From the NCBI GenBank assembly GCA_963920705.1, contig CAWUCO010000268.1:6138001-6202000 (forward strand): a stretch of 64,000 bases of DNA, read 5' to 3'. Made by a program: the position numbers and the translations under genes. This DNA is from Odiellus spinosus (lineage: Eukaryota > Arthropoda > Arachnida > Opiliones > Phalangiidae). The notes beneath the pieces were generated by a model. The model was not told the origin of the DNA. It worked only from the letters and a program-made list of their open reading frames with translations, and searched no databases. Each line of letters opens with the position of its first letter. Position 1 is the first letter of the stretch. This document shows, one piece after another, positions 1 through 64,000 of the stretch.

Positions 1-1149
1 GAGCTATTAATGGACAGTCTAAATAATAAGAGTTTTCAAAAATCCGTTGAAAAACAAGAAAAATATGGCCAATTCAAGAAATCATAGAATATCAAAATAG
101 TCAAATTTCAGATTTTCAAAATTCGCTTTTTGATATTAGATGCTTTTTGAATTGTCCATATTTTCCATGTTTTTCAACGGATTTTCCAAAACTCTTGTTT
201 TTTAGATAGACCAATATTTGCTCTTTCGAGTGGTCTTAATTTTGTCTAAATCGCTTAAAAATCAAAAGTTTTGTGTCCATTTGAATCCAATAATCTTGGA
301 TTTTTAAGTGTTTTTGCTTAATTTTAACCAATTTTATATTTGTCACAATTTTGCAATTTAGACAAAACCAAAATCATTCGAAAGAGCAATTAATGGACAG
401 TCTAAATAACAAGAGTTTTCAAAAATCCGTTGAAAAACAAGAAAAATATGGCCAATTCAAGAAATCATACAATATCAAAATAGTCAAATTTCAGATTTTA
501 AAAATTCGCTTTTTGATATTAGATGTTTTTTGAATTGTCCATATTTTTCTTGTTTTTCAACGGATTTTTGAAAACTCTTGTTATTTAGACTGTCCATTAA
601 TTGCTCTTTCGAATGACTTTGGTTTTGTCTAAATTGCAAAATTGTGACAAATATAAAATTGGTTAAAATTAAGCAAAAACACTTAAAAATCCAAGATTAT
701 TGGATTAAAATGGACACAAAACTTTTGATTTTTAAGCGATATAGACAAAATTAAGACCACTCGAAAGAGCAAATATTGGTCTATCTGAAAATCAAGAGTT
801 TTGGAAAATCCGTTGAAAAACAGGAAAAATATGGCCAATTCAAGAAATCATACAATATCAAAATAGTCAAATTTCAGATTTTCAAAATTCGCTTTTTGAT
901 ATTAGATGCTTTTTGAATTGTCCATATTTTCCATGTTTTTCAACGGATTTTCCAAAACTCTTGTTTTTTAGATAGACCAATATTTGCTCTTTCGAGTGGT
1001 CTTAAATTTGTCTAAATCGCTTAAAAATCAATAGTTTTGTGTCCATTTGAATCCAATAATCTTGGATTTTTAAGTGTTTTTGCTTTATTTTAACCAATTT
1101 TATATTTGTCACAATTTTGCAATTTAGACAAAACTAAAGTCATTCGAAT
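1..1149 (+). repeat. 1149-bp higher-order repeat, copy 1 (three dimers)
   Basis: Three monomers form one repeating unit: A-forward/B-reverse, A-forward/A-reverse, B(A)-forward/B-reverse. The unit starts with the variant GAGCTATTAATGG, which replaces the usual GAGCAATTAATGG, and carries the variant CATAGAATATC. Both markers recur at exactly 1149 bp. Copies 1 and 2 differ at only a few positions by eye, for example an AAAATCA to AAAATCAG change and TTGTTATT versus TTATTATT. Confidence 0.9.
170..820. repeat. ~650-bp near-perfect palindrome where A faces A
   Basis: The sequence left of about 495 is repeated in inverted orientation to the right of it. The left arm includes the B-reverse segment with GTGGTCTTAATTTTGTC, the CCAATAATCTTGG dyad and the full A half; the right arm carries the same elements in mirror order. 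Over the central A halves only isolated mismatches are visible, for example AAAATC versus AAAGTC. Such a palindrome could extrude a cruciform, and any transcript through it would fold on itself. Confidence 0.85.
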
Positions 1150-2298
1150 GAGCTATTAATGGACAGTCTAAATAATAAGAGTTTTCAAAAATCCGTTGAA
1201 AAACAAGAAAAATATGGCCAATTCAAGAAATCATAGAATATCAAAATAGTCAAATTTCAGATTTTCAAAATTCGCTTTTTGATATTAGATGCTTTTTGAA
1301 TTGTCCATATTTTCCATGTTTTTCAACGGATTTTCCAAAACTCTTGTTTTTTAGATAGACCAATATTTGCTCTTTCGAGTGGTCTTAATTTTGTCTAAAT
1401 CGCTTAAAAATCAGAAGTTTTGTGTCCATTTGAATCCAATAATCTTGGATTTTTAAGTGTTTTTGCTTTATTTTAACCAATTTTATATTTGTCACAATTT
1501 TGCAATTTAGACAAAACCAAAATCATTCGAAAGAGCAATTAATGGACAGTCTAAATAACAAGAGTTTTCAAAAATCCGTTGAAAAACAAGAAAAATATGG
1601 CCAATTCAAGAAATCATACAATATCAAAATAGTCAAATTTCAGATTTTAAAAATTCGCTTTTTGATATTAGATGTTTTTTGAATTGTCCATATTTTTCTT
1701 GTTTTTCAACGGATTTTTGAAAACTCTTATTATTTAGACTGTCCATTAATTGCTCTTTCGAATGACTTTGGTTTTGTCTAAATTGCAAAATTGTGACAAA
1801 TATAAAATTGGTTAAAATTAAGCAAAAACACTTAAAAATCCAAGATTATTGGATTAAAATGGACACAAAACTTTTGATTTTTAAGCGATATAGACAAAAT
1901 TAAGACCACTCGAAAGAGCAAATATTGGTCTATCTGAAAATCAAGAGTTTTGGAAAATCCGTTGAAAAACAGGAAAAATATGGCCAATTCAAGAAATCAT
2001 ACAATATCAAAATAGTCAAATTTCAGATTTTCAAAATTCGCTTTTTGATATTAGATGCTTTTTGAATTGTCCATATTTTCCATGTTTTTCAACGGATTTT
2101 CCAAAACTCTTGTTTTTTAGATAGACCAATATTTGCTCTTTCGAGTGGTCTTAAATTTGTCTAAATCGCTTAAAAATCAATAGTTTTGTGTCCATTTGAA
2201 TCCAATAATCTTGGATTTTTAAGTGTTTTTGCTTTATTTTAACCAATTTTATATTTGTCACAATTTTGCAATTTAGACAAAACTAAAGTCATTCGAAT
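1150..2298 (+). repeat. 1149-bp higher-order repeat, copy 2
   Basis: Direct tandem copy of 1-1149, recognised by GAGCTATTAATGG at 1150 and by the same order of half-units. Near identity to copy 1 indicates recent amplification of the three-dimer block as one piece rather than monomer by monomer. Confidence 0.9.
1319..1969. repeat. ~650-bp palindrome, second higher-order copy
   Basis: Equivalent of the palindrome centred at 495, shifted by 1149 bp (centre near 1644). The two arms again contain facing A halves, flanked by B segments in mirror order. Confidence 0.8.
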
Positions 2299-3447
2299 GA
2301 GCTATTAATGGACAGTCTAAATAATAAGAGTTTTCAAAAATCCGTTGAAAAACAAGAAAAATATGGCCAATTCAAGAAATCATAGAATATCAAAATAGTC
2401 AAATTTCAGATTTTCAAAATTCGCTTTTTGATATTAGATGCTTTTTGAATTGTCCATATTTTCCATGTTTTTCAACGGATTTTCCAAAACTCTTGTTTTT
2501 TAGATAGACCAATATTTGCTCTTTCGAGTGGTCTTAATTTTGTCTATATCGCTTAAAAATCAAAAGTTTTGTGTCAATTTTAATCCAATAATCTTGGATT
2601 TTTAAGTGTTTTTGCTTAATTTTAACCATGTTTATATTTGTCACAATTTTGCATTTTAGACAAAACCGAAGTCATTCGAAAGAGCAATTAATGGACAGTC
2701 TAAATAATAAGAGTTTTCAAAAATCCGTTGAAAAACAAGAAAAATATGGCCAATTCAAAAAACATCTAATATCAAAAAGCGAATTTTTAAATTCTGAAAT
2801 TTGACTATTTTGATATTGTATGATTTCTTGAATTGGCCATATTTTTCTTGTTTTTCAACGGATTTTTGAAAACTCTTGTTATTTAGACTGTCCATTAATT
2901 GCTCTTTCGAAAGACTTTGGTTTTGTCTAAATTGCAAAATTGTGACAAATATAAAATTGGTTAAAATTAAGCAAAAACACTTAAAAATCCAAGATTATTG
3001 GATTAAAATGGACACAAAACTTTTGATTTTTAAGCGATATAGACAAAATTAAGACCACTCGAAAGAGCAAATATTGGTCTATCTGAAAATCAAGAGTTTT
3101 GGAAAATCCGTTGAAAAACAGGAAAAATATGGCCAATTCAAGAAATCATACAATATCAAAATAGTCAAATTTCAGATTTTCAAAATTCGCTTTTTGATAT
3201 TAGATGCTTTTTGAATTGTCCATATTTTCCATGTTTTTCAACGGATTTTCCAAAACTCTTGTTTTTTAGATAGACCAATATTTGCTCTTTCAAGTGGTCT
3301 TAAATTTGTCTAAATCGCTTAAAAATCAATAGTTTTGTGTCCATTTGAATCCAATAATCTTGGATTTTTAAGTGTTTTTGCTTTATTTTAACCAATTTTA
3401 TATTTGTCACAATTTTGCAATTTAGACAAAACTAAAGTCATTCGAAT
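2299..3447 (+). repeat. 1149-bp higher-order repeat, copy 3 (variant)
   Basis: Third tandem copy, beginning with GAGCTATTAATGG at 2299. Its middle dimer differs: the forward A half (from about 2651) has a B-type end (CAATTCAAAAAACATC) and carries GCATTTTAGAC instead of GCAATTTAGAC. It is therefore a chimera exchanged after the shared box. The phase of the repeat is kept, and the next unit starts at 3448 with the same marker. Confidence 0.85.
2468..3118. repeat. ~650-bp palindrome, third copy with chimeric left arm
   Basis: Facing A halves centred near 2793, worked out from GCATTTT at 2651 and its partner at 2929-2935. The left arm ends as B type near the centre, so the innermost 40 bases follow the B-A pattern while the outer arms remain A against A. 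Confidence 0.7.
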
Positions 3448-3616
3448 GAGCTATTAATGGACAGTCTAAATAATAAGAGTTTTCAAAAATCCGTTGAAAA
3501 ACAAGAAAAATATGGCCAATTCAAGAAATCATAGAATATCAAAATAGTCAAATTTCAGATTTTCAAAATTCGCTTTTTGATATTAGATGCTTTTTGAATT
3601 GTCCATATTTTCCATG

Positions 3617-4267
3617 TTTTTCAACGGATTTTCCAAAACTCTTGTTTTTTAGATAGACCAATATTTGCTCTTTCGAGTGGTCTTAATTTTGTCTAAATCG
3701 CTTAAAAATCAAAAGTTTTGTGTCCATTTGAATCCAATAATCTTGGATTTTTAAGTGTTTTTGCTTTATTTTAACCAATTTTATATTTGTCACAATTTTG
3801 CAATTTAGACAAAACCAAAATCATTCGAAAGAGCAATTAATGGACAGTCTAAATAACAAGAGTTTTCAAAAATCCGTTGAAAAACAAGAAAAATATGGCC
3901 AATTCAAGAAATCATACAATATCAAAATAGTCAAATTTCAGATTTTAAAAATTCGCTTTTTGATATTAGATGTTTTTTGAATTGTCCATATTTTTCTTGT
4001 TTTTCAACGGATTTTTGAAAACTCTTATTATTTAGACTGTCCATTAATTGCTCTTTCGAATGACTTTGGTTTTGTCTAAATTGCAAAATTGTGACAAATA
4101 TAAAATTGGTTAAAATTAAGCAAAAACGCTTAAAAATCCAAGATTATAGGATTCAAATGGACACAAAACTTTTGATTTTTAAGCGATTTAGACAAAATTA
4201 AGACCACTCGAAAGAGCAAATATTGGTCTATCTGAAAATCAAGAGTTTTGGAAAATCCGTTGAAAAA
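3617..4267. repeat. ~650-bp palindrome, fourth copy
   Basis: Facing A halves centred near 3942. The outer right arm runs into a true B half (GGACAATTCAAAAAGCATC) instead of the B/A chimera seen in copies 1 and 2. Confidence 0.7.
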
Positions 4268-6269: not shown

Positions 6270-6370
6270 TTTCTTGAATTGCCATATTTTTCTTGTTTTT
6301 CAACGGATTTTCCAAAACTCTTGACTTTCAGATAGACCAATATTTTCTCTTTCGAGTGGTCTTAATTTTG
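6270..6370 (-). repeat. Chimeric half-unit, A inner part joined to B outer part
   Basis: Near the dyad this reverse half-unit is A type (GGTTTCTTGAATTG...TTTTTCTTG), but beyond the box it becomes B type (TTTTCCAAAACTCTTG followed by GATAGACCAATATTTTC). The switch falls at the box shared by A and B (ATTTTTCAACGGATTTT region), which is where recombination or gene conversion between halves would be expected. The same chimera is present near 13170 and 13935, so it was copied afterwards. Confidence 0.8.
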
Positions 6371-12300: not shown

Positions 12301-12930
12301 AAAAACATGGAAAATATGGACAATTCAAAAAACATCTAATATCAAAAAGCGAATTTTTAAAATCTGAAATTTGACTATTTTGATATTGTATGATTTCTTG
12401 AATTGGCCATATTTTTCTTGTTTTTCAACGGATTTTTGAAAACTCTTATTATTTAGACTGTCCATTAATTGCTCTTTCGAATGACTTTGGTTTTGTCTAA
12501 ATTGCAAAATTGTGACAAATATAAAATTGGTTAAAATTAAGCAAAAACACTTAAAAATCCAAGATTATTGGATTAAAATGGACACAAAACTTTTGATTTT
12601 TAAGCGATATAGACAAAATTAAGACCACTCGAAAGAGCAAATATTGGTCTATCTAAAAAACAAGAGTTTTGGAAAATCCGTTGAAAAACATGGAAAATAT
12701 GGACAATTCAAAAAACATCTAATATCAAAAAGCGAATTTTTAAAATCTGAAATTTGACTATTTTGATATTGTATGATTTCTTGAATTGGCCATATTTTTC
12801 TTGTTTTTCAACGGATTTTTGAAAACTCTTATTATTTAGACTGTCCATTAATTGCTCTTTCGAATGACTTTGGTTTTGTCTAAATTGCAAAATTGTGACA
12901 AATATAAAATTGGTTAAAATTAAGCAAAAA

Positions 12931-26400: not shown

Positions 26401-28013
26401 AGTCATTCGAAAGAGCAATTAATGGACAGTCTAAATAACAAGAGTTTTCAAAAATCCGTTGAAAAACAAGAAAAATATGGCCAATTCAAGAAACCATACA
26501 ATATCAAAATAGTCAAATTTCAGATTTTAAAAATTCGCTTTTTGATATTAGATGCTTTTTGAATTGTCCATATTTTCCATGTTTTTCAACGGATTTTCCA
26601 AAACTCTTGTTTTTAGATAGACCAATATTTGCTCTTTCGAGTGGTCTTAATTTTGTCTAAATCGCTTAAAAATCAAAAGTTTTGTGTCCATTTGAATCCA
26701 ATAATCTTGGATTTTTAAGTGTTTTTGCTTTATTTTAACCAATTTTATATTTGTCACAATTTTGCAATTTAGACAAAACCCAAGTCATTCGAAAGAGCAA
26801 TTAATGGACAGTCTAAATAACAAGAGTTTTCAAAAATCCGTTGAAAAACAAGAAAAATATGGCCAATTCAAGAAACCATACAATATCAAAATAGTCAAAT
26901 TTCAGATTTTAAAAATTCGCTTTTTGATATTAGATGCTTTTTGAATTGTCCATATTTTCCATGTTTTTCAACGGATTTTCCAAAACTCTTGTTTTTAGAT
27001 AGACCAATATTTGCTCTTTCGAGTGGTCTTAATTTTGTCTATATCGCTTAAAAATCAAAAGTTTTGTGTCCATTTTAATCCAATAATCTTGGATTTTTAA
27101 GTGTTTTTGCTTAATTTTAACCAATTTTATATTTGTCACAATTTTGCAATTTAGACAAAACCAAAGTCATTCGAAAGAGCAATTAATGGACAGTCTAAAT
27201 AATAAGAGTTTTCAAAAATCCGTTGAAAAACAAGAAAAATATGGCCAATTCAAAAAACATCTAATATCAAAAAGCGAATTTTTAAAATCTGAAATTTGAC
27301 TATTTTGATATTGTTTGATTTCTTGAATTACCATATTTTTCTTGTTTTTCAACGGATTTTTGAAAACTCTTGTTATTTAGACTGTCCATTAATTGCTCTT
27401 TCGAATGACTTTGGTTTTGTCTAAATTGCAAAATTGTGACAAATATAAAATTGGTTAAAATAAAGCAAAAACACTTAAAAATCCAAGATTATTGGATTCA
27501 AATGGACACAAAACTTTTGATTTTTAAGCGATTTAGACAAAATTAAGACCACTCGAAAGAGCAAATATTGGTCTATCTGAAAATCAAGAGTTTTGGAAAA
27601 TCCGTTGAAAAACAAGAAAAATATGGCCAATTCAAGAAACCATACAATATCAAAATAGTCAAATTTCAGATTTTAAAAATTCGCTTTTTGATATTAGATG
27701 CTTTTTGAATTGTCCATATTTTCCATGTTTTTCAACGGATTTTCCAAAACTCTTGTTTTTAGATAGACCAATATTTGCTCTTTCGAGTGGTCTTAATTTT
27801 GTCTATATCGCTTAAAAATCAAAAGTTTTGTGTCCATTTTAATCCAATAATCTTGGATTTTTAAGTGTTTTTGCTTAATTTTAAACAATTTTATATTTGT
27901 CACAATTTTGCAATTTAGACAAAACCAAAGTCATTCGAAAGAGCAATTAATGGACAGTCTAAATAATAAGAGTTTTCAAAAATCCGTTGAAAAACAAGAA
28001 AAATATGGCCAAT
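23422..28013. repeat. ~4592-bp twelve-monomer higher-order unit
   Basis: The monomers at 23422 and 23805 recur at 28014 and 28397 (offset 4592), and monomers at 19978, 21127 and 21787 recur at 24571, 25720 and 26380 (offset 4593). The unit contains the plus-oriented pair at 26380-27143. The copy starting at 28014 is cut by the foreign block at 28834. The mosaic of 2678-, 4593- and about 6890-bp offsets shows several rounds of unequal exchange. Confidence 0.75.
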
Positions 28014-28834
28014 TCAAAAAACATCTAATATCAAAAAGCGAATTTTTAAAATCTGAAATTTGACTATTTTGATATTGTATGATTTCTTGAATTGGCCATA
28101 TTTTTCTTGTTTTTCAACGGATTTTTGAAAACTCTTGTTATTTAGACTGTCCATTAATTGCTCTTTCGAATGACTTTGGTTTTGTCTAAATTGCAAAATT
28201 GTGACAAATATAAAATTGGTTAAAATAAAGCAAAAACACTTAAAAATCCAAGATTATAGGATTCAAATGGACACAAAACTTTTGATTTTTAAGCGATTTA
28301 GACAAAATTAAGACCACTCGAAAGAGCAAATATTGGTCTATCTGAAAATCAAGAGTTTTGGAAAATCCGTTGAAAAACATGGAAAATATAGCCAATTCAA
28401 AAAACATCTAATATCAAAAAGCGAATTTTTAAAATCTGAAATTTGACTATTTTGATATTGTATGGTTTCTTGAATTGGCCATATTTTTCTTGTTTTTCAA
28501 CGGATTTTTGAAAACTCTTATTATTTAGACTGTCCATTAATTGCTCTTTCGAATGACTTTGGTTTTGTCTAAATTGCAAAATTGTGACAAATATAAAATT
28601 GGTTAAAATAAAGCAAAAACACTTAAAAATCCAAGATTATAGGATTCAAATGGACACAAAACTTTTGATTTTTAAGCGATTTAGACAAAATTAAGACCAC
28701 TCGAAAGAGCAAATATTGGTCTATCTAAAAACAAGAGTTTTGGAAAATCCGTTGAAAAACATGGAAAATATGGACAATTCAAAAAGCATCTAATATCAAA
28801 AAGCGAATTTTTACAATCTGAAATTTGACTATTA

Positions 28835-28858
28835 GGATAAACACGTTCGTGTTTATCC
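28835..28858. repeat. Perfect terminal hairpin of the insertion
   Basis: GGATAAACACG, a TT spacer and CGTGTTTATCC form an 11-bp perfect stem with a 2-nt spacer, starting one base inside the left junction with the satellite. On the minus strand it precedes TAA-T, so it would be the 3'-terminal hairpin of a rolling-circle-type element. It is closer to the end than in classical Helitrons, where about ten bases separate hairpin and terminus. Confidence 0.9.
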
Positions 28859-28933
28859 CTTTATCTGAACTCGAATTTCATCAGAAACCGTAATGTCTTT
28901 TCCAATGGACCCGCGGCGCTTGATAACTGAAAG

Positions 28934-28957
28934 CGTCGTCGTCGTCGTCGTCGTCGT
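28934..28957 (+). repeat. (CGT)8 microsatellite
   Basis: Eight uninterrupted CGT units lie between GAAAG and TTTCCCTC. Its G+C content stands out against the AT-rich surroundings. It lies about 75 bp inside the hairpin end of the insertion. Confidence 0.97.
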
Positions 28958-29102
28958 TTCCCTCTTCCCACCGTCCACTGAATTCGAATTAATACAGACA
29001 AAGGTACTTTTGAAAAAATTTGATAAGACTTCGATCAGGTACAAGAGTATCTCTAGTTAAACACAGATTTCAATAATGAAATGTTGATTAAGTATACGAA
29101 GT

Positions 29103-29510
29103 AATAGAAAGTAAGGTACCTGAATGGGTTACAAAAGGGTGAAATCTTAAGCTTAGCCGAGCTTTACTAATTGCTTCAAAATGAATAAACAAAAATTTTA
29201 TTTCTTAAACAGTAGAATGATAAGGAATATCCATCGAATTCGAGTTAATAGAAAGTAAGGCGCCTGAATGGGTTACAAAAGGGTGAAATCATAAGCTTAG
29301 CCGAGCTTTATTAATTGCTTCAAAATGGTAAACAAAATTTTATTTCTTAAACAGTAGAATGATAATGAATATCCATCGAATTCGAGTTAATAGAGAGACA
29401 GATGCCTGTATGGGTGACGAAAAGGGTAAAACATATAACTAGCCGAGCTTTATTAATTGGCTTTAAATTGATAAACAAAAATTGATTTTATTAAACAGTT
29501 GATAAGTTTT
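29103..29510 (+). repeat. Three ~143-bp tandem repeats inside the insertion
   Basis: Copies start at AATAGAAAG (29103), AATAGAAAG (29247) and AATAGAGAG (29389), giving periods of 144 and 142 bp. Shared segments include CTGAATGGGTTACAAAAGGG, CTTAGCCGAGCTTTA, TAATTGCTTCAAAATG, TTAAACAGTAGAATGATAA and ATCCATCGAATTCGAGTTAA. The third copy is more diverged and ends about 20 bp short. A further decayed start may lie at about 28979 (GAATTCGAATTAATACAGAC). Confidence 0.92.
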
Positions 29511-29716
29511 TTTTAATGGCATTTTTTATCGTTAACGGAAAATTGCATTTATTGGGTTCTTTTACTAGGGTAGCCCTCTTCAGCCGTCTAATTTTGACTA
29601 TTATGTCATATCATGAGTATCCCATTATATTCACCCTAATTCACCGTAATTAAAAAGTTGGAATGATTTTCTTATCATTTGATTTTTTAACTTTAATAAT
29701 ATATCTCTTCTCGGCC

Positions 29717-29743
29717 TATATAAACGAAATTTGCATATTCAGT
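29717..29743 (+). promoter_or_regulatory. TATA box plus TCAGT initiator-like motif
   Basis: TATATAA at 29717-29723 is followed by ATTCAGTACT, in which TCAGT (29739-29743) matches the arthropod initiator consensus. The distance from the first T of the TATA box to the initiator A is 24 bases, slightly shorter than usual. The nearest downstream ATG is at 29752. It could be a remnant core promoter captured by the element, or a chance match in AT-rich DNA. Confidence 0.3.
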
Positions 29744-29830
29744 ACTCACAGATGCACCGTACCAATGCGTGGTTTACGTTAGCGTTTAAAATTGTGGGGA
29801 GCCCTCTCGTTTGTGCAATGGTGACGTCTT

Positions 29831-29941
29831 CGATTGTTTAGGCAATCGTTTCTCACCTATATTTCGGTGATAAGAGACTCATTTCTCACGATCTTTTGGG
29901 TAGAGTACTCGAATAAACCGAAGCGATTGAATGTAAATCGC
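29831..29941 (+). other. Cluster of three short perfect hairpins
   Basis: CGATTG/CAATCG with a 6-nt loop (29831-29848), TCACC/GGTGA with an 8-nt loop (29853-29870), and GCGATT/AATCGC with a 7-nt loop (29923-29941) lie within 111 bases, downstream of the TATA/initiator pair. This could mark a structured RNA, but the stems are only 5-6 bp and no known RNA family was recognised. Confidence 0.35.
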
Positions 29942-30164
29942 CTTACCTAGAAATGTGGCCAATATAATATAGTAAGTCACTGTAAAAACATTTCACTATG
30001 AGAGTTCTAGGGATTAAATATCACTCGAGTTGGACTTCATATCCTGCCAAGTGCTCGATTACACATGAAATTTATAGTTTAACGTTTTCAATCTCTACTT
30101 TATTTTTTAAAATACTTGAGTTTTGCGACTAGGATGTGCTTTAGATCCAATAGCTTCGTCATTA

Positions 30165-30197
30165 CAACTACGTAATAACGTTGCTATTAAGTAGTTG
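30165..30197. repeat. Imperfect 13-bp-stem hairpin
   Basis: CAACTAC-G-TAATA pairs with TATTA-A-GTAGTTG around the loop ACGTTGC, giving 12 paired bases and one G-A mismatch. Purpose unknown; it is not obviously a terminator, since no T-run follows. Confidence 0.7.
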
Positions 30198-30420
30198 ACC
30201 AATTATTGAAGTCTGTATCTAAATCACGTCTAACTCAATTATAATAAAAAATAAAGATTTAGAATTTTAAATAGGATATACGAAACGGAAATTGATGTCG
30301 GCGAGTTAAATAAACGGCCACATACTTCTGGCCTCCAGAATTATGTTCTCATGCTGCTTTAAAGAATTGTTTCGCTTTCCATGCTCATTTTTTGTCGATG
30401 CGATTCAATATTATAAATTT

Positions 30421-30880
30421 AATCTCTAGCTCGGTCTAGCCCGTCCCTCTTGTAATATTTTAGGTAAGGCTAGGTTAGTTAATCCCTCGACCTCCCCCGT
30501 CCATTTGGTAATCTTTAAGGTGAGGTTAGGTTAGTTAATCCCTCTAATTAGCCAATCCTTCCAACTAGTTAATCCTTAGCTCGGGCTATTTGTAATATTT
30601 TAGGTAAGGCTAGGTTAGGTTTGTTAATTCCTCGAATTAGCCCATCGTTCCAACTAGTTAATCCCTCGGGTTACCCATTCCATCAAGTAATCTTTAAGGT
30701 TAAATTAGGTTAATTAAACACTGGAAATAGCCCATCCCTCCAACTAGGTAATCCCTACAACTCGGGCTAACCCGTTCCTCTTGTAGTATTTTAGGTAAGA
30801 TTAGTTTAGGTTAGTTAATCAATTGAACTAGCCCATCCCTGTTTTACAACTTAGGTAAGGTTAGGTTAGTTAATCTCTGC
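30421..30880 (+). repeat. Degenerate TTAGG-like tandem repeats (about six units)
   Basis: Six segments contain variants of TAGGTAAGGTTAGGTTAGTTAATC, seen near 30460, 30518, 30600, 30697, 30792 and 30850. Two flavours tend to alternate: TGTAATATTTTAGGTAAGG and TAATCTTTAAGGTGAGG. Between them lie AGCTCGGGCTAACCCGT-type and AATTAGCCCATCC-type spacers and CCAACTAGTTAATCC. The GGTTAGGTTAG core is two units of the insect telomere repeat TTAGG, and such degenerate runs are common in insect non-coding DNA. The spacing is irregular (about 55-100 bp), so this is not a telomere. Confidence 0.85.
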
Positions 30881-31041
30881 CTTTCGAGATTTGTACCAGG
30901 GTCTCAATTACGAATAGATTGAAGCCTCAATTAAACGCTTTAATTTTTATTCAGCATTAGTAAGAATTAAAGTTCAATAAACCTATAAAGCAAAATAGTG
31001 AAATGTGGAAAAGGTGTATATTTTTGGAGAAAAAAGGACAG
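30881..31041. other. Short unique AT-rich stretch between repeat and palindrome
   Basis: About 160 bases with no tandem structure or open frame. Its end, GGACAGAAATTA (31036-31047), recurs as a 12-bp direct repeat at 31115-31126 inside the palindrome arm. Nothing else recognised. Confidence 0.6.
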
Positions 31042-31244
31042 AAATTATACAAAAAAGAGGTTGCTTCGCACCCTTAAAAAAACTCTTTATCTAACTCGAA
31101 TCAAACCCGTGAAGGGACAGAAATTATTTGTTAGAGAAAGAGCAATTTCATATCTTTAAAATTATAGTTAGTAGATTTAGTCTACTACTTCAAAGATTTT
31201 ATTACTATTATATATTTTCCAAAAAACGGATAAAGACGACCTAG
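31042..31244 (+). repeat. Perfect 203-bp inverted repeat, left arm
   Basis: Every one of the 203 bases is matched by the reverse complement of 31350-31552, checked base by base. The arm begins AAATTATACAAAAAAGAGG, includes CTTCGCACCC, CTCGAATCAAACCCGTGAAGG and ACGGATAAAGACGACCTAG, and has no frame of interest. The sequence outside it on the left (GGACAG) is not mirrored on the right. Confidence 0.97.
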
Positions 31245-31349
31245 TTAACCATCCTCTCCCATTGATGTTTATTTTAAATTCTATCAGTATCACTAATAAA
31301 ATTAGCTAAAGATGGAGTTCGTTTAATGTATATATATTTATCATTAGTC
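31245..31349. other. 105-bp loop between palindrome arms
   Basis: Unpaired spacer between the two identical 203-bp arms. It is AT-rich with a TATATATA run near its right end; no coding potential or recognised motif. An asymmetric loop argues against a simple mirror artefact of sequencing. Confidence 0.85.
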
Positions 31350-31552
31350 CTAGGTCGTCTTTATCCGTTTTTTGGAAAATATATAATAGTAATAAAATCT
31401 TTGAAGTAGTAGACTAAATCTACTAACTATAATTTTAAAGATATGAAATTGCTCTTTCTCTAACAAATAATTTCTGTCCCTTCACGGGTTTGATTCGAGT
31501 TAGATAAAGAGTTTTTTTAAGGGTGCGAAGCAACCTCTTTTTTGTATAATTT
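31350..31552 (-). repeat. Perfect 203-bp inverted repeat, right arm, at the insertion edge
   Basis: Reverse complement of 31042-31244 without a mismatch. It ends GTATAATTT; the last three or four bases are also satellite sequence, so the arm runs exactly to the right boundary of the foreign block. The two arms and loop (511 bp) could be a palindromic MITE or foldback element, or an inverted duplication of the end of the larger element. No clear target duplication flanks the 511-bp unit on its own. Confidence 0.95.
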
Positions 31553-36319: not shown

Positions 36320-36499
36320 TATTGGATTAAAATGGACACAAAACTTTTGATTTTTAAGCGATTTAGACAAAATTAAGACTACTCGAAAGAGCGAATATTG
36401 GTCTATCTAAAAAACAAGAGTTTTGGAAAATCCGTTGAAAAACATGGAAAATATAGCCAATTCAAAAAACATCTAATATCAAAAAGCGAATTTTTAAAA
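36320..36499 (+). repeat. Example B half-unit of the canonical monomer
   Basis: This is the B half of one ordinary monomer (36320-36702), given as a reference. It runs from the CCAAGATTATTGG dyad at 36313-36325 to the second dyad centre at 36500. Landmarks are the GACACAAAAC segment, CGATTTAGACAAAATT, CTCGAAAGAGC, a poly-A stretch before CAAGAGTTTTGG, the box TCCGTTGAAAAAC at 36431-36443, and CAATTCAAAAAACATC followed by ATATC. Compared with the A half read on the opposite strand, 86 of 104 bases from the TTTAGACAAAA landmark through CAATTCAA are identical in a hand alignment, so the two halves are homologous. Confidence 0.85.
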
Positions 36500-36523
36500 T
36501 CTGAAATTTGACTATTTTGATAT
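36476..36523. repeat. Dyad centre between B and A halves (potential cruciform)
   Basis: An imperfect palindrome in the reference monomer whose outer arms are ATATC-AAAA and TTTT-GATAT and whose inner arms are GAATTTTTAAAATC and its loose counterpart. It is centred near 36500. The same structure recurs in nearly every monomer of the window and is the point where A-A or B-B facing pairs form in the left 5 kb. The foreign block at 28834 entered within the equivalent segment of another monomer. Confidence 0.75.
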
Positions 36524-36702
36524 TGTATGGTTTCTTGAATTGGCCATATTTTTCTTGTTTTTCAACGGATTTTTGAAAACTCTTATTATTTAGACTGTCC
36601 ATTAATTGCTCTTTCGAATGACTTTGGTTTTGTCTAAATTGCAAAATTGTGACAAATATAAAATTGGTTAAAATAAAGCAAAAACACTTAAAAATCCAAG
36701 AT
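36500..36702 (-). repeat. Example A half-unit of the canonical monomer
   Basis: This is the A half of the reference monomer, in opposite orientation to the B half. Read on the minus strand it has TTTAGACAAAACC, TTCGAAAGAGCAATTAATGG, ACAGTCTAAATAATAAGAG, the box TCCGTTGAAAAAC (36557-36569 on the plus strand as its complement) and TATGGCCAATTCAAG. The box lies exactly as far from position 36500 as the B-half box does, which places the dyad. A differs from B mainly by CAGTCTAAAT versus CTATCTAAAA, TTTTCAAAAA versus TTTTGGAAAA, and AAGAAAAATATGGCC versus ATGGAAAATATGGAC. It is about 20 bp longer than the B half between the two dyad centres. Confidence 0.85.
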
Positions 36703-39700
36703 TATAGGATTCAAATGGACACAAAACTTTTGATTTTTAAGCGATTTAGACAAAATTAAGACCACTCGAAAGAGCAAATATTGGTCTATCTGAAAATCAA
36801 GAGTTTTGGAAAATCCGTCGAAAATCATGGAAAATATGGACAATTCAAAAAGCATCTAATATCAAAAAGCGAATTTTTAAAATCTGAAATTTGACTATTT
36901 TGATATTGTATGGTTTCTTGAATTGGCCATATTTTTCTTGTTTTTCAACGGATTTTTGAAAACTCTTATTATTTAGACTGTCCATTAATTGCTCTTTCGA
37001 ATGACTTTGGTTTTGTCTAAATTGCAAAATTGTGACAAATATAAAATTGGTTAAAATTAAGCAAAAACGCTTAAAAATCCAAGATTATTGGATTCAAATG
37101 GACACAAAACTTTTGATTTTTAAGCGATTTAGACAAAATTAAGACCACTCGAAAGAGCAAATATTGGTCTATCTAAAAAACAAGAGTTTTGGAAAATCCG
37201 TTGAAAAACATGGAAAATATGGACAATTCAAAAAGCATCTAATATCAAAAAGCGACTTTTGAAAATCTGAAATTTGACTATTTTGATATTCTATGGTTTC
37301 TTGAATTGGCCATATTTTTCTTGTTTTTCAACGGATTTTTGAAAACTCTTATTATTTAGACTGTCCATTAATTGCTCTTTCGAATGACTTTGGTTTTGTC
37401 TAAATTGCAAAATTGTGACAAATATAAAATTGGTTAAAATAAAGCAAAAACGCTTAAAAGTCCAAAATTATTGGATTAAAATGGACACAAAACTTTTGAT
37501 TTTTAAGCGATTTAGACAAAATTAAGACTACTCGAAAGAGCAAATATTGGTCTATCTAAAAAACAAGAGTTTTGGAAAATCCGTTGAAAAACATGGAAAA
37601 TATAGAAAATTCAAAAAACATCTAATATCAAAAAGCGAATTTTTAAAATCTGAAATTTGACTATTTTGATATTGTATGGTTTCTTGAATTGGCCATATTT
37701 TTCTTGTTTTTCAACGGATTTTTGAAAACTCTTATTATTTATACTGTCCATTAATTGCTCTTTCGAATGACTTTGGTTTTGTCTAAATTGCAAAATTGTG
37801 ACAAATATAAAATTGGTTAAAATAAAGCAAAAACACTTAAAAATCCAAGATTATAGGATTCAAATGGACACAAAACTTTTGATTTTTAAGCGATTTAGAC
37901 AAAATTAAGACCACTCGAAAGAGCAAATATTGGTCAATCTAAAAAACAAGAGTTTTGAAAAATCCGTTGAAAAACATGGAAAATATGGACAATTCAAAAA
38001 GCATCTAATATCAAAAAGCGAATTTTTAAAATCTGAAATTTGACTATTTTGATATTGTATGATTTCTTGAATTAGCCATATTTTTCTTGTTTTTTAACGG
38101 ATTTGTGAAAACTCTTGTTATTTAGACTGTCCATTAATTGCTCTTTCGAATGACTTTGGTTTTGTCTAAATTGCAAAACTGTGACAAATATAAAAATGGT
38201 TAAAATAAAGCAAAAACACTTAAAAATCCAAGATTATTGGATTCAAATGGACACAAAACTTTTGATTTTTAAGCGATTTAGACAAAATTAGACCACTCGA
38301 AAGAGCAAATATTGGTCTATCTAAAAAACGTGAGTTTTGGAAAATCCCTTGAAAAACATGGAAAATATGGACAATTCAAAAAAAATCTAATATCAAAAAG
38401 CGAATTTTTAAAATCTGAAATTTGACTATTTTGATATTGTATGGTTTCTTGAATTGGCCATATTTTTCTTGTTTTTCAACGGATTTTTGAAAACTCTTAT
38501 TATTAAGACTGTCCATTAATTGCTCTTTCGAATAACTTTGGTTTTGTCTAAATTGCAAAATTGTGACAAATATAAAATTGGTTAAAATAAAGCAAAAACG
38601 CTTAAAAACCCAAGATTATTGGATTAAAATGGACACAAAACTTTTGATTTTTAAGCGATTTAGACAAAATTAAGACTACTCGAAAGAGCGAATATTGGTC
38701 TATCTAAAAAACAAGAGTTTTGGAAAATCCGTTGAAAAACATGGAAAATATAGCCAATTCAAAAAACATCTAATATCAAAAAGCGAATTTTTAAAATCTG
38801 AAAGTTGACTATTTTGATATTGTATGGTTTCTTGAATTGGCCATATTTTTCTTGTTTTTCAACGGATTTTTGAAAACTCTTATTATTTAGACTGTCCATT
38901 AATTGCTCTTTCGAATGACTTTGGTTTTGTCTAAATTGCAAAATTGTGACAAATATAAAATTGGTTAAAATAAAGCAAAAACACTTAAAAATCCAAGATT
39001 ATAGGATTCAAATGGACACAAAACTTTTGATTTTTAAGCGATTTAGACAAATTTAAGACCACTCGAAAGAGCAAATATTGGTCAATCTAAAAAACAAGAG
39101 TTTTGGAAAATCCGTTGAAAAACATGGAAAATATGGACAATTCAAAAAGCATCTAATATCAAAAAGCGAATTTTTAAAATCTGAAATTTGACTATTTTGA
39201 TATTGTATGATTTCTTGAATTGGCCATATTTTTCTTGTTTTTCAACGGATTTTTGAAAACTCTTGTTATTTAGACTGTCCATTAATTGCTCTTTCGAATG
39301 ACTTTGGTTTTGTCTAAATTGCCAAGACGTGACAAATATAAAATTGGTTAAAATAAAGCAAAAACACTTAAAAATCCAAGATTATTGGATTAAAATGGAC
39401 ACAAAACTTTTGATTTTTAAGCGATTTAGACCAAATTAAGACTACTCGATAGAGCAAATATTAGTCTATCTAAAAAACAAGAGTTTTGGAAAATCCGTTG
39501 AAAAACATGGAAAATATAGCCAATTCAAAAAACATCTAATATCAAAAAGCGAATTTTTAAAATCTGAAATTTGACTATTTTGATATTGTATGGTTTCTTG
39601 AATTGGCCATATTTTTCTTGTTTTTCAACGGATTTTTGAAAACTCTTATTATTTAGACTGTCCATTAATTGCTCTTTCGAATGACTTTGGTTTTGTCTAA

Positions 39701-41448: not shown

Positions 41449-42149
41449 AATTTTTAAAATTTGAAATTTGACTATTTTGATATTGTATGGTTTCTTGAAT
41501 TGGCCATATTTTTCTTGTTTTTCAACGGATTTTTGAAAACTCTTATTATTAAGACTGTCCATTAATTGCTCTTTCGAATGACTTTGGTTTTGTCTAAATT
41601 GCAAAATTGTGACAAATATAAAATTGGTTAAAATAAAGCAAAAACGCTTAAAAATCCAAGATTATTGGATTAAAATGGACACAAAACTTTTGATTTTTAA
41701 GCGATTTAGACAAAATTAAGACTACTCGAAAAAGCAAATATTGGTCTATCTAAAAAACAAGAGTTTTGGAAAATCCGTTGAAAAACATGGAAAATATAGC
41801 CAATTCAAAAAACATCTAATATCAAAAAGCGAATTTTTAAAATCTGAAATTTGCCTATTTTGATATTGTATGGTTTCTTGAATTGGCCATATTTTTCTTG
41901 TTTTTCAACGGGTTTTTGAAAACTCTTATTATTTAGACTGTCCATTAATTGCTCTTTCGAATGACTTTGGTTTTGTCTAAATTGCAAAATTGTGACAAAT
42001 ATAAAATTGGTTAAAATAAAGCAAAAACACTTAAAAATCCAAGATTATTGGATTCAAATGGACACAAAACTTTTGATTTTTAAGCGATTTAGACAAAATT
42101 AGACCACTCGAAAGAGCAAATATTGGTCTATCTAAAAAACATGAGTTTT

Positions 42150-42191
42150 GGAAAATCCCTTGAAAAACATGGAAAATCCCTTGAAAAACAT
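42150..42191 (+). repeat. Local 21-bp tandem duplication in a B half
   Basis: GGAAAATCCCTTGAAAAACAT is present twice in direct succession (42150-42170 and 42171-42191), lengthening this monomer to about 403 bp. It duplicates the conserved box in its CCCTTG form. It is a single event in the window. Confidence 0.95.
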
Positions 42192-45100
42192 GGAAAATAT
42201 GGACAATTCAAAAAACATCTAATATCAAAAAGCTAATTTTTAAAATCTGAAATTTGACTATTTTGATATTGTATGGTTTCTTGAATTGGCCATATTTTTC
42301 TTGTTTTTCAACGGATTTTTGAAAACTTTTATTATTAAGACTGTCCGTTAATTGCTCTTTCGAATGACTTTGGTTTTGTCTAAATTGCAAAATTGTGACA
42401 AATATAAAATTGGTTAAAATAAAGCAAAAACGCTTAAAAATCCAAGATTATTGGATTAAAATGGACACAAAACTTTTGATTTTTAAGCGATTTAGACAAA
42501 ATTAAGACTACTCGAAAAAGCAAATATTGGTCTATCTAAAAAACAAGAGTTTTGGAAAATCCGTTGAAAAACATGGAAAATATAGCCAATTCAAAAAACA
42601 TCTAATATCAAAAAGCGAATTTTTAAAATCTGAAATTTGCCTATTTTGATATTGTATGGTTTCTTGAATTGGCCATATTTTTCTTGTTTTTCAACGGGTT
42701 TTTGAAAACTCTTATTATTTAGACTGTCCATTAATTGCTCTTTCGAATGACTTTGGTTTTGTCTAAATTGCAAAATTGTGACAAATATAAAATTGGTTAA
42801 AATAAAGCAAAAACACTTAAAAATCCAAGATTATTGGATTCAAATGGACACAAAACTTTTGATTTTTAAGCGATTTAGACAAAATTAGACCACTCGAAAG
42901 AGCAAATATTGGTCTATCTAAAAAACATGAGTTTTGGAAAATCCCTTGAAAAACATGGAAAATAAGGACAATTCAAAAAACATCTAATATCAAAAAGCGA
43001 ATTTTTAAAATCTGAAATTTGACTATTTTGATATTGTATGGTTTCTTGAATTGGCCATATTTTTCTTGTTTTTCAACGGATTTTTGAAAACTCTTATTAT
43101 TTAGACTGTCCATTAATTGCTCTTTCGAATGACTTTGGTTTTGTCTAAATTGCAAAATTGTGACAAATATAAAATTGGTTAAAATAAAGCAAAAACACTT
43201 AAAAATCCAAGATTATAGGATTCAAATGGACACAAAACTTTTGATTTTTAAGCGATTTAGACAAATTTAAGACCACTCGAAAGAGCAAATATTGGTCAAT
43301 CTAAAAAACAAGAGTTTTGGAAAATCCGTTGAAAAACATGGAAAATATGGACAATTCAAAAAGCATCTAATATCAAAAAGCGAATTTTTAAAATCTGAAA
43401 TTTGACTATTTTGATATTGTATGATTTCTTGAATTGGCCATATTTTTCTTGTTTTTCAACGGATTTTTGAAAACTCTTGTTATTTAGACTGTCCATTAAT
43501 TGCTCTTTCGAATGACTTTGGTTTTGTCTAAATTGCCAAGACGTGACAAATATAAAATTGGTTAAAATAAAGCAAAAACACTTAAAAATCCAAGATTATT
43601 GGATTAAAATGGACACAAAACTTTTGATTTTTAAGCGATTTAGACCAAATTAAGACTACTCGAAAGAGCAAATATTAGTCTATCTAAAAAACAAGAGTTT
43701 TGGAAAATCCGTTGAAAAACATGGAAAATATAGCCAATTCAAAAAACATCTAATATCAAAAAGCGAATTTTTAAAATCTGAAATTTGACTATTTTGATAT
43801 TGTATGGTTTCTTGAATTGGCCATATTTTTCTTGTTTTCCAACGGATTTTTGAAAACTCTTATTATTTAGACTGTCCATTAATTGCTCTTTCGAATGACT
43901 TTGGTTTTGTCTAAATTGAAAAATTGTGACAAATATAAAATTGGTTAAAATAAAGCAAAAACATTTAAAAATCCAAGATTATAGGATTCAAATGGACACA
44001 AAACTTTTGATTTTTAAGCGATTTAGACAAAATTAAGACCACTCGAAAGAGCAAATATTGGTCTATCTAAAAAACAAGAGTTTTGGAAAATCCGTTGAAA
44101 AACATGGAAAATATGGACAATTCAAAAAGCATCTAATATCAAAAAGCGAATTTTTAAAATCTGAAATTTGACTATTTTGATATTGTATGATTTCTTGAAT
44201 TGGCCATATTTTTCTTGTTTTTCAACGGATTTTTGAAAACTCTTGTTATTTAGACTGTATATTAATTGCTATTTCGAATGACTTTAGTTTTGTCTAAATT
44301 GCAAAATTGTGACAAATATAAAATTGGTTAAAATAAAGCAAAAACACTTAAAAATCCAATATTATTGGATTCAAAGGGACACAAAACTTTTGATATTTAA
44401 GCGATTTAGACAAAATTAGACCACTCGAAAGAGCAAATATTGTTCTATCTAAAAAACGTGAGTTTTGGAAAATCCCTTGAAAAACATGGAAAATATGGAC
44501 AATTCAAAAAACATCTAATATCAAAAAGCGAATTTTTAAAATCTGAAATTTGACTATTTTGATATTGTATGGTTTCTTGAATTGGCCATATTTTTCTTGT
44601 TTTTCAACGGATTTTTGAAAACTCTTATTATTAAGACTGTCCATTAATTGCTCTTTCGAATGACTTTGGTTTTGTCTAAATTGCAAAATTGTGACAAATA
44701 TAAAATTGGTTAAAATAAAGCAAAAACGCTTAAAAACCCAAGATTATTGGATTAAAATGGACACAAAACTTTTGATTTTTAAGCGATTTAGACAAAATTA
44801 AGACTACTCGAAAGAGCGAATATTGGTCTATCTAAAAAACAAGAGTTTTGGAAAATCCGTCGAAAAACATGGAAAATATAGCCAATTCAAAAAACATCTA
44901 ATATCAAAAAGCGAATTTTTAAAATCTGAAATTTGACTATTTTGATATTGTATGGTTTCTTGAATTGGCCATATTTTTCTTGTTTTTCAACGGATTTTTG
45001 AAAACTCTTATTATTTAGACTGTCCATTAATTGCTCTTTCGAATGACTTTGGTTTTGTCTAAATTGCAAAATTGTGACAAATATAAAATTGGTTAAAATA

Positions 45101-46414: not shown

Positions 46415-46427
46415 AATTCAAAAAGCG
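46415..46427 (+). repeat. Second copy of the 17-bp deletion monomer
   Basis: Same AAAAAGC-mediated deletion as at 41436, with the same accompanying TTTAAAATTTGAAATTTG variant. The shared rare lesion shows that this monomer was copied within a larger block. Confidence 0.88.
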
Positions 46428-58900: not shown

Positions 58901-61900
58901 ACACAAAACTTTTGATTTTTAAGCGATTTAGACAAAATTAAGACTACTCGAAAGAGCAAATATTGGTCTATCTAAAAAACATGAGTTTTGGAAAATCCCT
59001 TGAAAAACATGGAAAATATGGACAATTCAAAAAACATCTAATATCAAAAAGCGAATTTTTAAAATCTGAAATTTGACTATTTTGATATTGTATGGTTTCT
59101 TGAATTGGCCATATTTTTCTTGTTTTTCAACGGATTTTTGAAAACTCTTATTATTTAGACTGTCCATTAATTGCTCTTTCGAATGACTTTGGTTTTGTCT
59201 AAATTGCAAAATTGTGACAAATATAAAATTGGTTAAAATAAAGCAAAAATACATAAAAATCCAAGATTATAGGATTCAAATGGACACAAAACTTTTGATT
59301 TTTAAGCGATTTAGACAAAATTAAGACCACTCGAAAGAGCAAATATTGGTCTATCTAAAAAACAAGAGTTTACGAAAATCCGTTGAAAAACATGGAAAAT
59401 ATGGACAATTCAAAAAGCATCTAATATCAAAAAGCGAATTTTTAAAATCTGAAATTTGACTATTTTGATATTGTATGGTTTCTTGAATTGGCCATATTTT
59501 TCTTGTTTTTCAACGGATTTTTGAAAACTCTTGTTATTTAGACTGTATATTAATTGCTCTTTCGAATGACTTTGGTTTTGTCTAAATTGCAAAATTGTGA
59601 CAAATATAAAATTGGTTAAAATAAAGCAAAAACACTTAAAAATCCAAGATTATTGGATTCAAATGGACACAAAACTTTTGATTTTTAAGCGATTTAGACA
59701 AAATTAGACCACTCGAAAGAGCAAATATTGGTCTATCAAAAAAACATGAGTTTTGGAAAATCCCTTGAAAAACATTGAAAATATGGACAATTCAAAAAAC
59801 ATCTAATATCAAAAAGCGAATTTTTAAAATCTGAAATTTGACTATTTTGATATTGTATGGTTTCTTGAATTGGCCATATTTTTCTTGTTTTTCAACGGAT
59901 TTTTGAAAACTCTTATTATTAAGACTGTCCATTCATTGCTCTTTCGAATGACTTTGGTTTTGTCTAAATTGCAAAATTGTGACAAATATAAAATTGGTTA
60001 AAATAAAGCAAAAACACTTAAAAATCCAAGATTATTGGATTCAAATGGACACAAAACTTTTGATTTTTAAGCGATTTAGACAAAATTAGACCACTCGAAA
60101 GAGCAAATATTGGTCTATCTAAAAAACATGAGTTTTGGAAAATCCCTTGAAAAACATGGAAAATATGGACAATTCAAAAAACATCTAATATCAAAAAGCG
60201 AATTTTTAAAATCTGAAATTTGACTATTTTGATATTGTATGGTTTCTTGAATTGGCCATATTTTTCTTGTTTTTCAACGGATTTTTGAAAACTCTTATTA
60301 TTTAGACTGTCCATTAATTGCTCTTTCGAATGACTTTGGTTTTGTCTAAATTGCAAAATTGTGACAAATATAAAATTGGTTAAAATAAAGCAAAAATACA
60401 TAAAAATCCAAGATTATAGGATTCAAATGGACACAAAACTTTTGATTTTTAAGCGATTTAGACAAAATTAAGACCACTCGAAAGAGCAAATATTGGTCTA
60501 TCTAAAAAACAAGAGTTTACGAAAATCCGTTGAAAAACATGGAAAATATGGACAATTCAAAAAGCATCTAATATCAAAAAGCGAATTTTTAAAATCTGAA
60601 ATTTGACTATTTTGATATTGTATGATTTCTTGAATTGGCCATATTTTTCTTGTTTTTCAACGGATTTTTGAAAACTCTTGTTATTTAGACTGTCCATTAA
60701 TTGCTCTTTCGAATGACTTTGGTTTTGTCTAAATTGCAAAATTGTGACAAATATAATATAGGTTAAAATAAAGCAAAAACACTTAAAAATCCAAGATTAT
60801 TGGATTCAAATGGACACAAAACTTTTGATTTTTTAGCAATTTAGACAAAATTAGACCACTCGAAAGAGCAAATATTGGTCTATCTAAAAAACATGAGTTT
60901 TGGAAAACATGAGTTTTGGAAAATCCCTTGAAAAACATGGAAAATATGGACAATTCAAAAAACATCTAATATCAAAAAGCGAATTTTTAAAATCTGAAAT
61001 TTGACTATTTTGATATTGTATGGTTTCTTGAATTGGCCATATTTTTCTTGTTTTTCAACGGATTTTTGAAAACTCTTATTATTAAGACTGTCCATTAATT
61101 GCTCTTTCGAATGACTTTGGTTTTGTCTAAATTGCAAAATTGTGACAAATATAAAATTGGTTAAAATAAAGCAAAAACGCTTAAAAATCCAAGATTATTG
61201 GATTAAAATGGACACAAAACTTTTGATTTTTAAGCGATTTAGACAAAATTAAGACTACTCGAAAGAGCAAATATTGGTCTATCTAAAAAACATGAGTTTT
61301 GGAAAATCCCTTGAAAAACATGGAAAATATGGACAATTCAAAAAACATCTAATATCAAAAAGCGAATTTTTAAAATCTGAAATTTGACTATTTTGATATT
61401 GTATGGTTTCTTGAATTGGCCATATTTTTCTTGTTTTTCAACGGATTTTTGAAAACTCTTATTATTTAGACTGTCCATTAATTGCTCTTTCGAATGACTT
61501 TGGTTTTGTCTAAATTGCAAAATTGTGACAAATATAAAATTGGTTAAAATAAAGCAAAAATACATAAAAATCCAAGATTATAGGATTCAAATGGACACAA
61601 AACTTTTGATTTTTAAGCGATTTAGACAAAATTAAGACCACTCGAAAGAGCAAATATTGGTCTATCTAAAAAACAAGAGTTTACGAAAATCCGTTGAAAA
61701 ACATGGAAAATATGGACAATTCAAAAAGCATCTAATATCAAAAAGCGAATTTTTAAAATCTGAAATTTGACTATTTTGATATTGTATGGTTTCTTGAATT
61801 GGCCATATTTTTCTTGTTTTTCAACGGATTTTTGAAAACTCTTGTTATTTAGACTGTATATTAATTGCTCTTTCGAATGACTTTGGTTTTGTCTAAATTG

Positions 61901-64000
61901 CAAAATTGTGACAAATATAATATAGGTTAAAATAAAGCAAAAACACTTAAAAATCCAAGATTATTGGATTCAAATGGACACAAAACTTTTGATTTTTAAG
62001 CGATTTAGACAAAATTAGACCACTCGAAAGAGCAAATATTGGTCTATCTAAAAAACATGAGTTTTGGAAAATCCCTTGAAAAACATGGAAAATATGGACA
62101 ATTCAAAAAACATCTAATATCAAAAAGCGAATTTTTAAAATCTGAAATTTGACTATTTTGATATTGTATGGTTTCTTGAATTGGCCATATTTTTCTTGTT
62201 TTTCAACGGATTTTTGAAAACTCTTATTATTAAGACTGTCCATTCATTGCTCTTTCGAATGACTTTGGTTTTGTCTAAATTGCAAAATTGTGACAAATAT
62301 AAAATTGGTTAAAATAAAGCAAAAACACTTAAAAATCCAAGATTATTGGATTCAAATGGACACAAAACTTTTGATTTTTAAGCGATTTAGACAAAATTAG
62401 ACCACTCGAAAGAGCAAATATTGGTCTATCTAAAAAACATGAGTTTTGGAAAATCCCTTGAAAAACATGGAAAATATGGACAATTCAAAAAACATCTAAT
62501 ATCAAAAAGCGAATTTTTAAAATCTGAAATTTGACTATTTTGATATTGTATGGTTTCTTGAATTGGCCATATTTTTCTTGTTTTTCAACGGATTTTTGAA
62601 AACTCTTATTATTTAGACTGTCCATTAATTGCTCTTTCGAATGACTTTGGTTTTGTCTAAATTGCAAAATTGTGACAAATATAAAATTGGTTAAAATAAA
62701 GCAAAAATACATAAAAATCCAAGATTATAGGATTCAAATGGACACAAAACTTTTGATTTTTAAGCGATTTAGACAAAATTAAGACCACTCGAAAGAGCAA
62801 ATATTGGTCTATCTAAAAAACAAGAGTTTACGAAAATCCGTTGAAAAACATGGAAAATATGGACAATTCAAAAAGCATCTAATATCAAAAAGCGAATTTT
62901 TAAAATCTGAAATTTGACTATTTTGATATTGTATGATTTCTTGAATTGGCCATATTTTTCTTGTTTTTCAACGGATTTTTGAAAACTCTTGTTATTTAGA
63001 CTGTCCATTAATTGCTCTTTCGAATGACTTTGGTTTTGTCTAAATTGCAAAATTGTGACAAATATAATATAGGTTAAAATAAAGCAAAAACACTTAAAAA
63101 TCCAAGATTATTGGATTCAAATGGACACAAAACTTTTGATTTTTTAGCAATTTAGACAAAATTAGACCACTCGAAAGAGCAAATATTGGTCTATCTAAAA
63201 AACATGAGTTTTGGAAAATCCCTTGAAAAACATGGAAAATATGGACAATTCAAAAAACATCTAATATCAAAAAGCGAATTTTTAAAATCTGAAATTTGAC
63301 TATTTTGATATTGTATGGTTTCTTGAATTGGCCATATTTTTCTTGTTTTTCAACGGATTTTTGAAAACTCTTATTATTAAGACTGTCCATTAATTGCTCT
63401 TTCGAATGACTTTGGTTTTGTCTAAATTGCAAAATTGTGACAAATATAAAATTGGTTAAAATAAAGCAAAAACGCTTAAAAATCCAAGATTATTGGATTA
63501 AAATGGACACAAAACTTTTGATTTTTAAGCGATTTAGACAAAATTAAGACTACTCGAAAGAGCAAATATTGGTCTATCTAAAAAACAAGAGTTTTGGAAA
63601 ATCCGTTAAAAAACATGGAAAATATGGACAATTCAAAAAGCATCTAATATCAAAAAGCGAATTTTTAAAATCTGAAATTTGACTATTTTGATATTGTATG
63701 GTTTCTTGAATTGGCCATATTTTTCTTGTTTTTCAACGGATTTTTGAAAACTCTTGTTATTTAGACTGTATATTAATTGCTCTTTCGAATGACTTTGGTT
63801 TTGTCTAAATTGCAAAATTGTGACAAATATAAAATTGGTTAAAATAAAGCAAAAACACTTAAAAATCCAAGATTATAGGATTCAAATGGACACAAAACTT
63901 TTGATTTTTAAGCGATTTAGACAAAATTAAGACCACTCGAAAGAGCAAATATTGGTCTATCTAAAAAACAAGAGTTTTGGAAAATCCGTTGAAAAACATG
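49901..64000 (-). repeat. Array 2 right segment, highly homogenised higher-order repeats
   Basis: The marker AAAAATACATAAAAATCC occurs near 56190, 58100, 59250, 60397, 61560 and 62707, giving spacings of about 1912, 1148, 1147, 1164 and 1147 bp. The 1164 value is explained by a local 16-bp duplication. GTATATTAATTGCTCTTTCG, GAGTTTACGAAAATCC and AATATAATATAGGTT variants follow in a fixed order. Within blocks the copies look almost identical, which suggests the most recent amplification in the window. No gene seen. Confidence 0.85.
60891..60922 (+). repeat. Local 16-bp tandem duplication in a B half
   Basis: ACATGAGTTTTGGAAA is present twice in direct succession (60891-60906 and 60907-60922), giving a monomer of about 398 bp. 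It accounts for the one irregular spacing in the surrounding higher-order repeats. Confidence 0.95.

Follow-up and report, generated by a model that had tools for sequence, protein, structure and literature searches.

How a satellite array comes to hold blocks of monomers pointing in opposite directions is the question raised by a 64,000-nucleotide stretch of the Odiellus spinosus genome (hereafter the window), which occupies positions 6138001-6202000 of scaffold C261 (6,235,000 bases). Tandem Repeats Finder follows a 383-bp period over 356-64000 of the window, broken by one insertion. The assembly copy that we searched comprises 443,074,358 bases in 286 contigs and is slightly smaller than the published qqOdiSpin1.1 assembly (310 scaffolds, 443,687,896 bp; PMC11503004). 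Our favoured explanation, to which we give a probability of about 0.7, is that each monomer consists of a single imperfect palindrome (~287 bp) and a 96-bp spacer, and that the arms of the palindrome, acting as inverted repeats for homologous exchange, flip blocks of the array.

A consensus built from 52 monomers pairs with its own reverse complement over positions 374-383 plus 1-277, with the dyad at consensus position 139 (36500 in the window). In the monomer around this point, a left arm, A (consensus 374-383 and 1-105; 36352-36466, + strand), faces a right arm, B (36534-36638, - strand), and the outer 105 bp of A and reverse-complemented B are ~80% identical. The central part between them (36467-36533) includes a 10-bp inverted run offset by one base; the inner 33 bp beside the dyad reach 37% identity without gaps and are non-homologous in that alignment. 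A preliminary description of this DNA had counted, by hand, 86 of 104 identical positions between A and reverse-complemented B, a figure reproduced by the consensus (18 differences over the 104 outermost positions) and nearly so by the monomer that it named (84/104). Its two symmetric 13-bp boxes (36431-36443 and 36557-36569) proved to be exact reverse complements centred on 36500. The arm-to-arm similarity, which it proposed to judge against shuffled sequence, lies far beyond that background: the self-inverse score of the consensus is 269, compared with a mean of 30.7 and a maximum of 76 in 500 dinucleotide shuffles, and the 52 individual monomers score 223-283 where 52 mononucleotide shuffles reach at most 48. 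Pairwise comparison of the A and B halves over the 52 monomers, also proposed there, gave mean identities of 96% among A arms, 98% among B arms and 70% (maximum 72%) between A and reversed B. Because identity within each arm is far above that between A and B, the two arms diverged before the copies spread, which supports an ancient inverted duplication within the monomer.

The longest arm-to-arm homology is a 39-bp block at consensus 66-104 of the A arm (36427-36465, + strand), mirrored in the B arm at consensus 174-212 (36535-36573, - strand); it includes the 13-bp box. In the consensus the arms are identical over 66-83 (18 bp), 87-95 and 97-104, and they differ at 84, 86 and the polymorphic position 96. 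In two monomers, at 42149-42198 and 60888-60923, short stretches of 21 and 16 bp are duplicated internally, within or just outside the left-arm block.

The preliminary description made the whole monomer an inverted dimer, built from copies of a ~190-bp ancestor joined head-to-head and tail-to-tail. One dyad stands, but the tail-to-tail half and the second dyad that it implies are absent from the 96-bp spacer (consensus 278-373; 36639-36734, + strand), which does not significantly resemble its own reverse complement (p = 0.21) or the arms, whether in direct (p = 0.42) or inverted (p = 0.21) orientation, and folds unremarkably (z = -0.08); these tests found no second dyad in the spacer. As the spacer has no inverted partner, the monomer is one dyad plus a spacer, with 96 bp left unpaired. 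The hairpin potential claimed for the satellite is supported for the 287-nt palindrome (36352-36638), whose folding energy as single-stranded DNA is -75.6 kcal/mol (z = -15 relative to 200 shuffled sequences). With two inversely oriented, related halves, the repeat is a palindromic (inverted-subunit) satellite. A satellite of Tribolium brevicornis, reportedly described by Mravinac in 2005, is said to contain long inversely oriented subunits in a monomer of about 1 kb; it would share the inverted build of the Odiellus repeat but have the longer monomer.

Monomer direction was decoded against the 52-monomer consensus on both strands with a jump-Viterbi decoder, which can pass from any position on either strand to any other for a constant penalty. 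In the window, positions 1-28009 form a mosaic that holds all 37 of the direction switches found there, each at palindrome mirror positions. Uniform + monomers follow over 28010-28839 up to the insertion, placed by repeat finding and decoding at 28840-31548, and the remainder (31549-64000) is a uniform + array of 383-bp monomers with zero switches. The preliminary description had half-units alternating in direction across the array; in 1-28009, whole monomers and not only half-units change direction, and 28840-31548 is an insertion rather than satellite. Around the window on C261, a mostly minus domain that extends over 16 kb or more (6,108,001-6,124,283, uniform save for one 98-bp flip) gives way to a mosaic zone of about 42 kb (6,124,283-6,166,009) and then to a plus domain of 59 kb (6,166,009-6,224,926), which includes the insertion and is otherwise uninterrupted. 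One array therefore contains kilobase subarrays of opposite monomer direction, the arrangement known as a macro-dyad. Satellite fills each of the 15 ten-kilobase stretches of C261 sampled beyond the window, of which three (L036-L038) had been picked blind to known matches and 12 for matches or for adjacency to the window. Across the assembly, a 31-base spacer pattern has 61,221 matches with at most two mismatches, corresponding at 383 bp per match to ~23 Mb of satellite, or 5.3% of the assembly; on chromosome 6 (scaffold C6), among the matches listed, they run from the first bases to beyond 3.4 Mb.

The decoded sample amounts to 294 kb in 16 units, made up of the window, neighbouring stretches and other scaffolds, and contains 83 switches. 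All 83 link mirror positions of the palindrome (position sums of 277-280), 82 of them in exact base register: the sum is 277 in 41/41 plus-to-minus switches and 279 in 41 of the 42 minus-to-plus switches, the last of which gives 280. In a control comprising four simulations, in which random segments were inverted in an 80-kb plus-only array, the decoder recovered 294/294 random breakpoints, of which 2 fell in mirror register. The switches come from six units (C261 6.108-6.232 Mb, L027, L030 on C104, L031 on C215, L035 on C47, and L037). Numbered along the arm, the base preceding the switch is 64-65 (20 cases), 84 (29), 96 (32) and 105 or 106 (2), which puts the switches inside the 39-bp block or at its edges and at least 33 bp from the dyad. 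Inversion sites are accordingly recurrent and conserved, with two main junction types. Only the monomer core is inverted in three short flips, which measure 98, 117 and 129 bp.

Hybrids were extracted at 82 of the 83 switches; six of 384-385 bp, which walk over adjacent switches, were excluded and 76 were clustered. These measure 276-277 bp and comprise 38 A-A' (plus-to-minus) and 38 B'-B (minus-to-plus) junctions, built around a core of the usual kind. Their outer arms match at 52-60 of 60 positions in 74 of the 76, compared with 47/60 in the consensus, and the inner parts of these 74 match at 12-23 of 38 positions (17/38 in the consensus). Because the arms differ at known bases, each junction records the position of the exchange. 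Among the plus-to-minus hybrids, 37/38 have A bases at 64/65 and B bases from 84, the remaining one having B at 64/65; 31/38 minus-to-plus hybrids keep B bases through 86 and have A bases by 105; in the other seven (six from C104, one from C261) the change to A comes at 84/86. Judged by these haplotypes, the exchange took place within or next to 66-104, with at least three breakpoint classes. Of the corresponding recombinant 37-mers in the sample, 32 of 33 are located at switches: the A-outer/B-inner recombinant has 28 copies in the sample, 27 of them at switches, the converse B-outer/A-inner form has 5 (5/5 at switches), and the ordinary A 37-mer has 355 copies with none at a switch. Genome-wide, the counts are 35,870 for the ordinary A-arm 37-mer, 8,853 for the A-outer/B-inner form and 7,105 for its converse. 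A second candidate exchange site, the 12-bp identical run at 22-33, is almost unused, its two recombinants occurring 0 and 0 times in the sample and 3 and 133 times genome-wide.

Since the junctions are A-A' and B'-B hybrids at mirror points of the arms, homology-guided exchange is indicated. We propose that homologous exchange uses the two arms as inverted repeats. Inside one monomer it would flip the core; where it joins arms that belong to different monomers, it would flip the intervening block; and unequal exchange could then spread inverted blocks along the array. Long self-matches of 1.6-2.7 kb at 98.6-99.7% identity (search floor 98.5%) occur at lags of 2, 3, 4, 5, 7, 8, 12 and 18 monomers, and one of 2,683 bp (99.7%, lag 7 monomers) contains inverted blocks. 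Some of the copied stretches hold inverted blocks, and amplification therefore followed inversion. Taken together, these results suggest that the array can invert parts of itself by virtue of the symmetry of its monomer.

Several observations weigh against this explanation. The 83 switches are not independent events, many being copies of one another: at cut-offs of 3, 6 and 10 the A-A' hybrids fall into 17, 12 or 6 groups, the B'-B hybrids into 14, 3 or 1. Ten of the 16 sampled units are without a switch. The common mosaic pair (A-A' in 66-83, B'-B in 87-104) is not strictly reciprocal, so that conversion of two mismatches or separate events are needed, and the A-A' reciprocal of the main minus-to-plus class has 0 copies in the sample and 1,047 genome-wide. 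The main B'-B signature lies within 40 bp of a decoded switch in 29 of its 38 sample matches. Two A-A' hybrids, at C261 6,224,926 and 6,230,664, match at only 23/60 in an ungapped comparison, possibly owing to a one-base shift. Among the matches listed, C6 carries recombinant 37-mers in register on the + strand, and the genome-wide counts therefore partly reflect patch conversion and not inversion. The first ~0.3 Mb of C6 also shows, among these matches, steps of both 341 and 383 bp, together with the four possible A/B combinations at 64/65 and 84/86, on one strand and in register, which suggests heavy arm conversion in a subfamily. At single bases, mirror alleles show at most a weak enrichment (19/32 sites, 59%, against 32-44% in ten shifted controls), and we dropped them as proof of conversion.

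Replication template switching, in which a fork stalled at the monomer hairpin jumps to the opposite arm at short homology and may jump back with no duplex crossover, is a possible alternative that we rate tentatively, below our favoured explanation but above the other rivals. The two overlap, as the favoured explanation covers homology-guided arm exchange generally, and the sequence offers no discriminator between template switching and crossover. Template switching predicts identical mirror-register junctions; it fits the strong single-strand folding, the non-reciprocal A-A'/B'-B pairs, for which it needs no reciprocity, and the core flips of 98, 117 and 129 bp, which resemble two nearby switches. 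Snap-back might be expected near the dyad, yet the switches stay at least 33 bp away from it.

We consider it unlikely that one ancestral inversion at the 39-bp block was simply amplified and dispersed, possibly being retained as useful, as has been proposed for Tribolium madens. Such a history agrees with the recurrence of stretches at whole-monomer lags and with the grouping of 31 of the 38 B'-B junctions into one cluster at cut-off 6. It has difficulty with the three or more breakpoint classes and the three core flips, with junction classes that differ between C104 on the one hand and C215 and most of C261 on the other, and with A-A' junctions that differ at up to 23 alignment columns.

Less probable again is that the palindrome is a candidate centromeric element, forming cruciforms in place of CENP-B boxes, whose symmetry would be kept by selection. 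The satellite is abundant and its dyad strong, and harvestman chromosomes are usually monocentric, with heteropycnotic blocks at the centromeres of some phalangiids, namely South African ones (PMC5904373). Because harvestmen are usually monocentric, a centromere function of the satellite is possible, but arms that are only 80% alike around an unmatched central 33 bp indicate that the symmetry is not tightly kept. That assembly or read artefacts created false switches is very improbable, even though satellite DNA is hard to assemble and C261 (6,235,000 bases) falls below the smallest chromosomal scaffold (9.92 Mb; PMC11503004, Table 3), as artefacts should give random junction positions, yet 82/83 switches show the exact mirror register. 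The junctions also recur on more than one scaffold, each with haplotypes of its own, and the consensus quality value (QV) of the assembly is 60.6 (PMC11503004).

Macro-dyad satellite arrays are reported from Tribolium madens, T. castaneum and T. freemani, and were stated in 2026 to be documented exclusively in Tribolium (PMC13081366). The Odiellus array resembles them in its kilobase blocks of opposed monomers and its recurrent, conserved inversion sites, and extends macro-dyad arrays from beetles to an arachnid. It differs in that the monomer is itself palindromic, the junctions are arm hybrids (82/83 in exact register) and the exchange lies in or beside a 39-bp block (compare PMC13081366). 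For the inverted blocks in Tribolium arrays the authors could offer a hypothesis only, namely ectopic recombination between similar subunits in the case of TmSat2 (PMC13081366); in Odiellus, the origin of macro-dyad arrays becomes testable by sequencing individuals and relatives. No description of the 383-bp Odiellus satellite was found, by title or abstract start, among the best-ranked papers in the literature, which is no proof of absence.

Satellite also occurs, among the matches listed, at nine places on C1-C5. Seven of these are short clusters in which minus monomers lie to the left of plus monomers (C1:33.02, C2:2.55, C2:8.47, C3:23.31, C4:19.30, C5:7.09 and C5:18.27 Mb); a single monomer (C1:1.80 Mb) and a one-direction array (C5:1.80-1.90 Mb) show no inversion and were left out of the comparison. 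Judged by match coordinates, the junction register is 34 mod 383 in 7/7 clusters, unlike the 277-280 of the arrays, a phase step of 124-126 bp occurs in each cluster, and the clusters of two pairs agree in layout to the base. A common dispersed inverted element would best explain the seven clusters, and hints at a putative foldback-like mobile relative of the satellite. In Drosophila virilis, internal tandem repeats of the Tetris foldback transposon (TIR-220 repeats) have expanded into satellite arrays (PMC4079207). Tandem repeats within the inverted termini of a dispersed element (PMC4079207) resemble the seven Odiellus clusters as mapped by match coordinates. We regard as doubtful, but worth stating, the idea that the monomer is a self-inverting cassette, whose inverted repeat with its 39-bp exchange block drives repeated flips of monomer blocks and so produces opposed arrays, and that the satellite shares ancestry with a foldback-like element still dispersed as these clusters with their common junction; if true, the palindrome's origin, the array flips and the satellite's spread would all trace back to a single mobile source.

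The insertion at 28840-31548 (~2.7 kb) enters a monomer ~15-20 bp from its dyad. It contains a perfect 203-bp inverted repeat (31042-31244 and 31350-31552, with 105 nt between the arms), whose last bases lie at the edge of the satellite. It also holds 2.8 copies of a 142-bp tandem repeat (29102-29499). The one reading frame tried gave no Pfam match.

Elsewhere in the genome, C17 carries several nuclear copies of mitochondrial COX1 at 1.1-4.4 Mb, the longer ones with in-frame TAG codons. The motif (TTAGG)6 has 9,597 overlapping matches genome-wide, and among the matches listed those on C1 include many at interior places, as interstitial telomere-like repeats.

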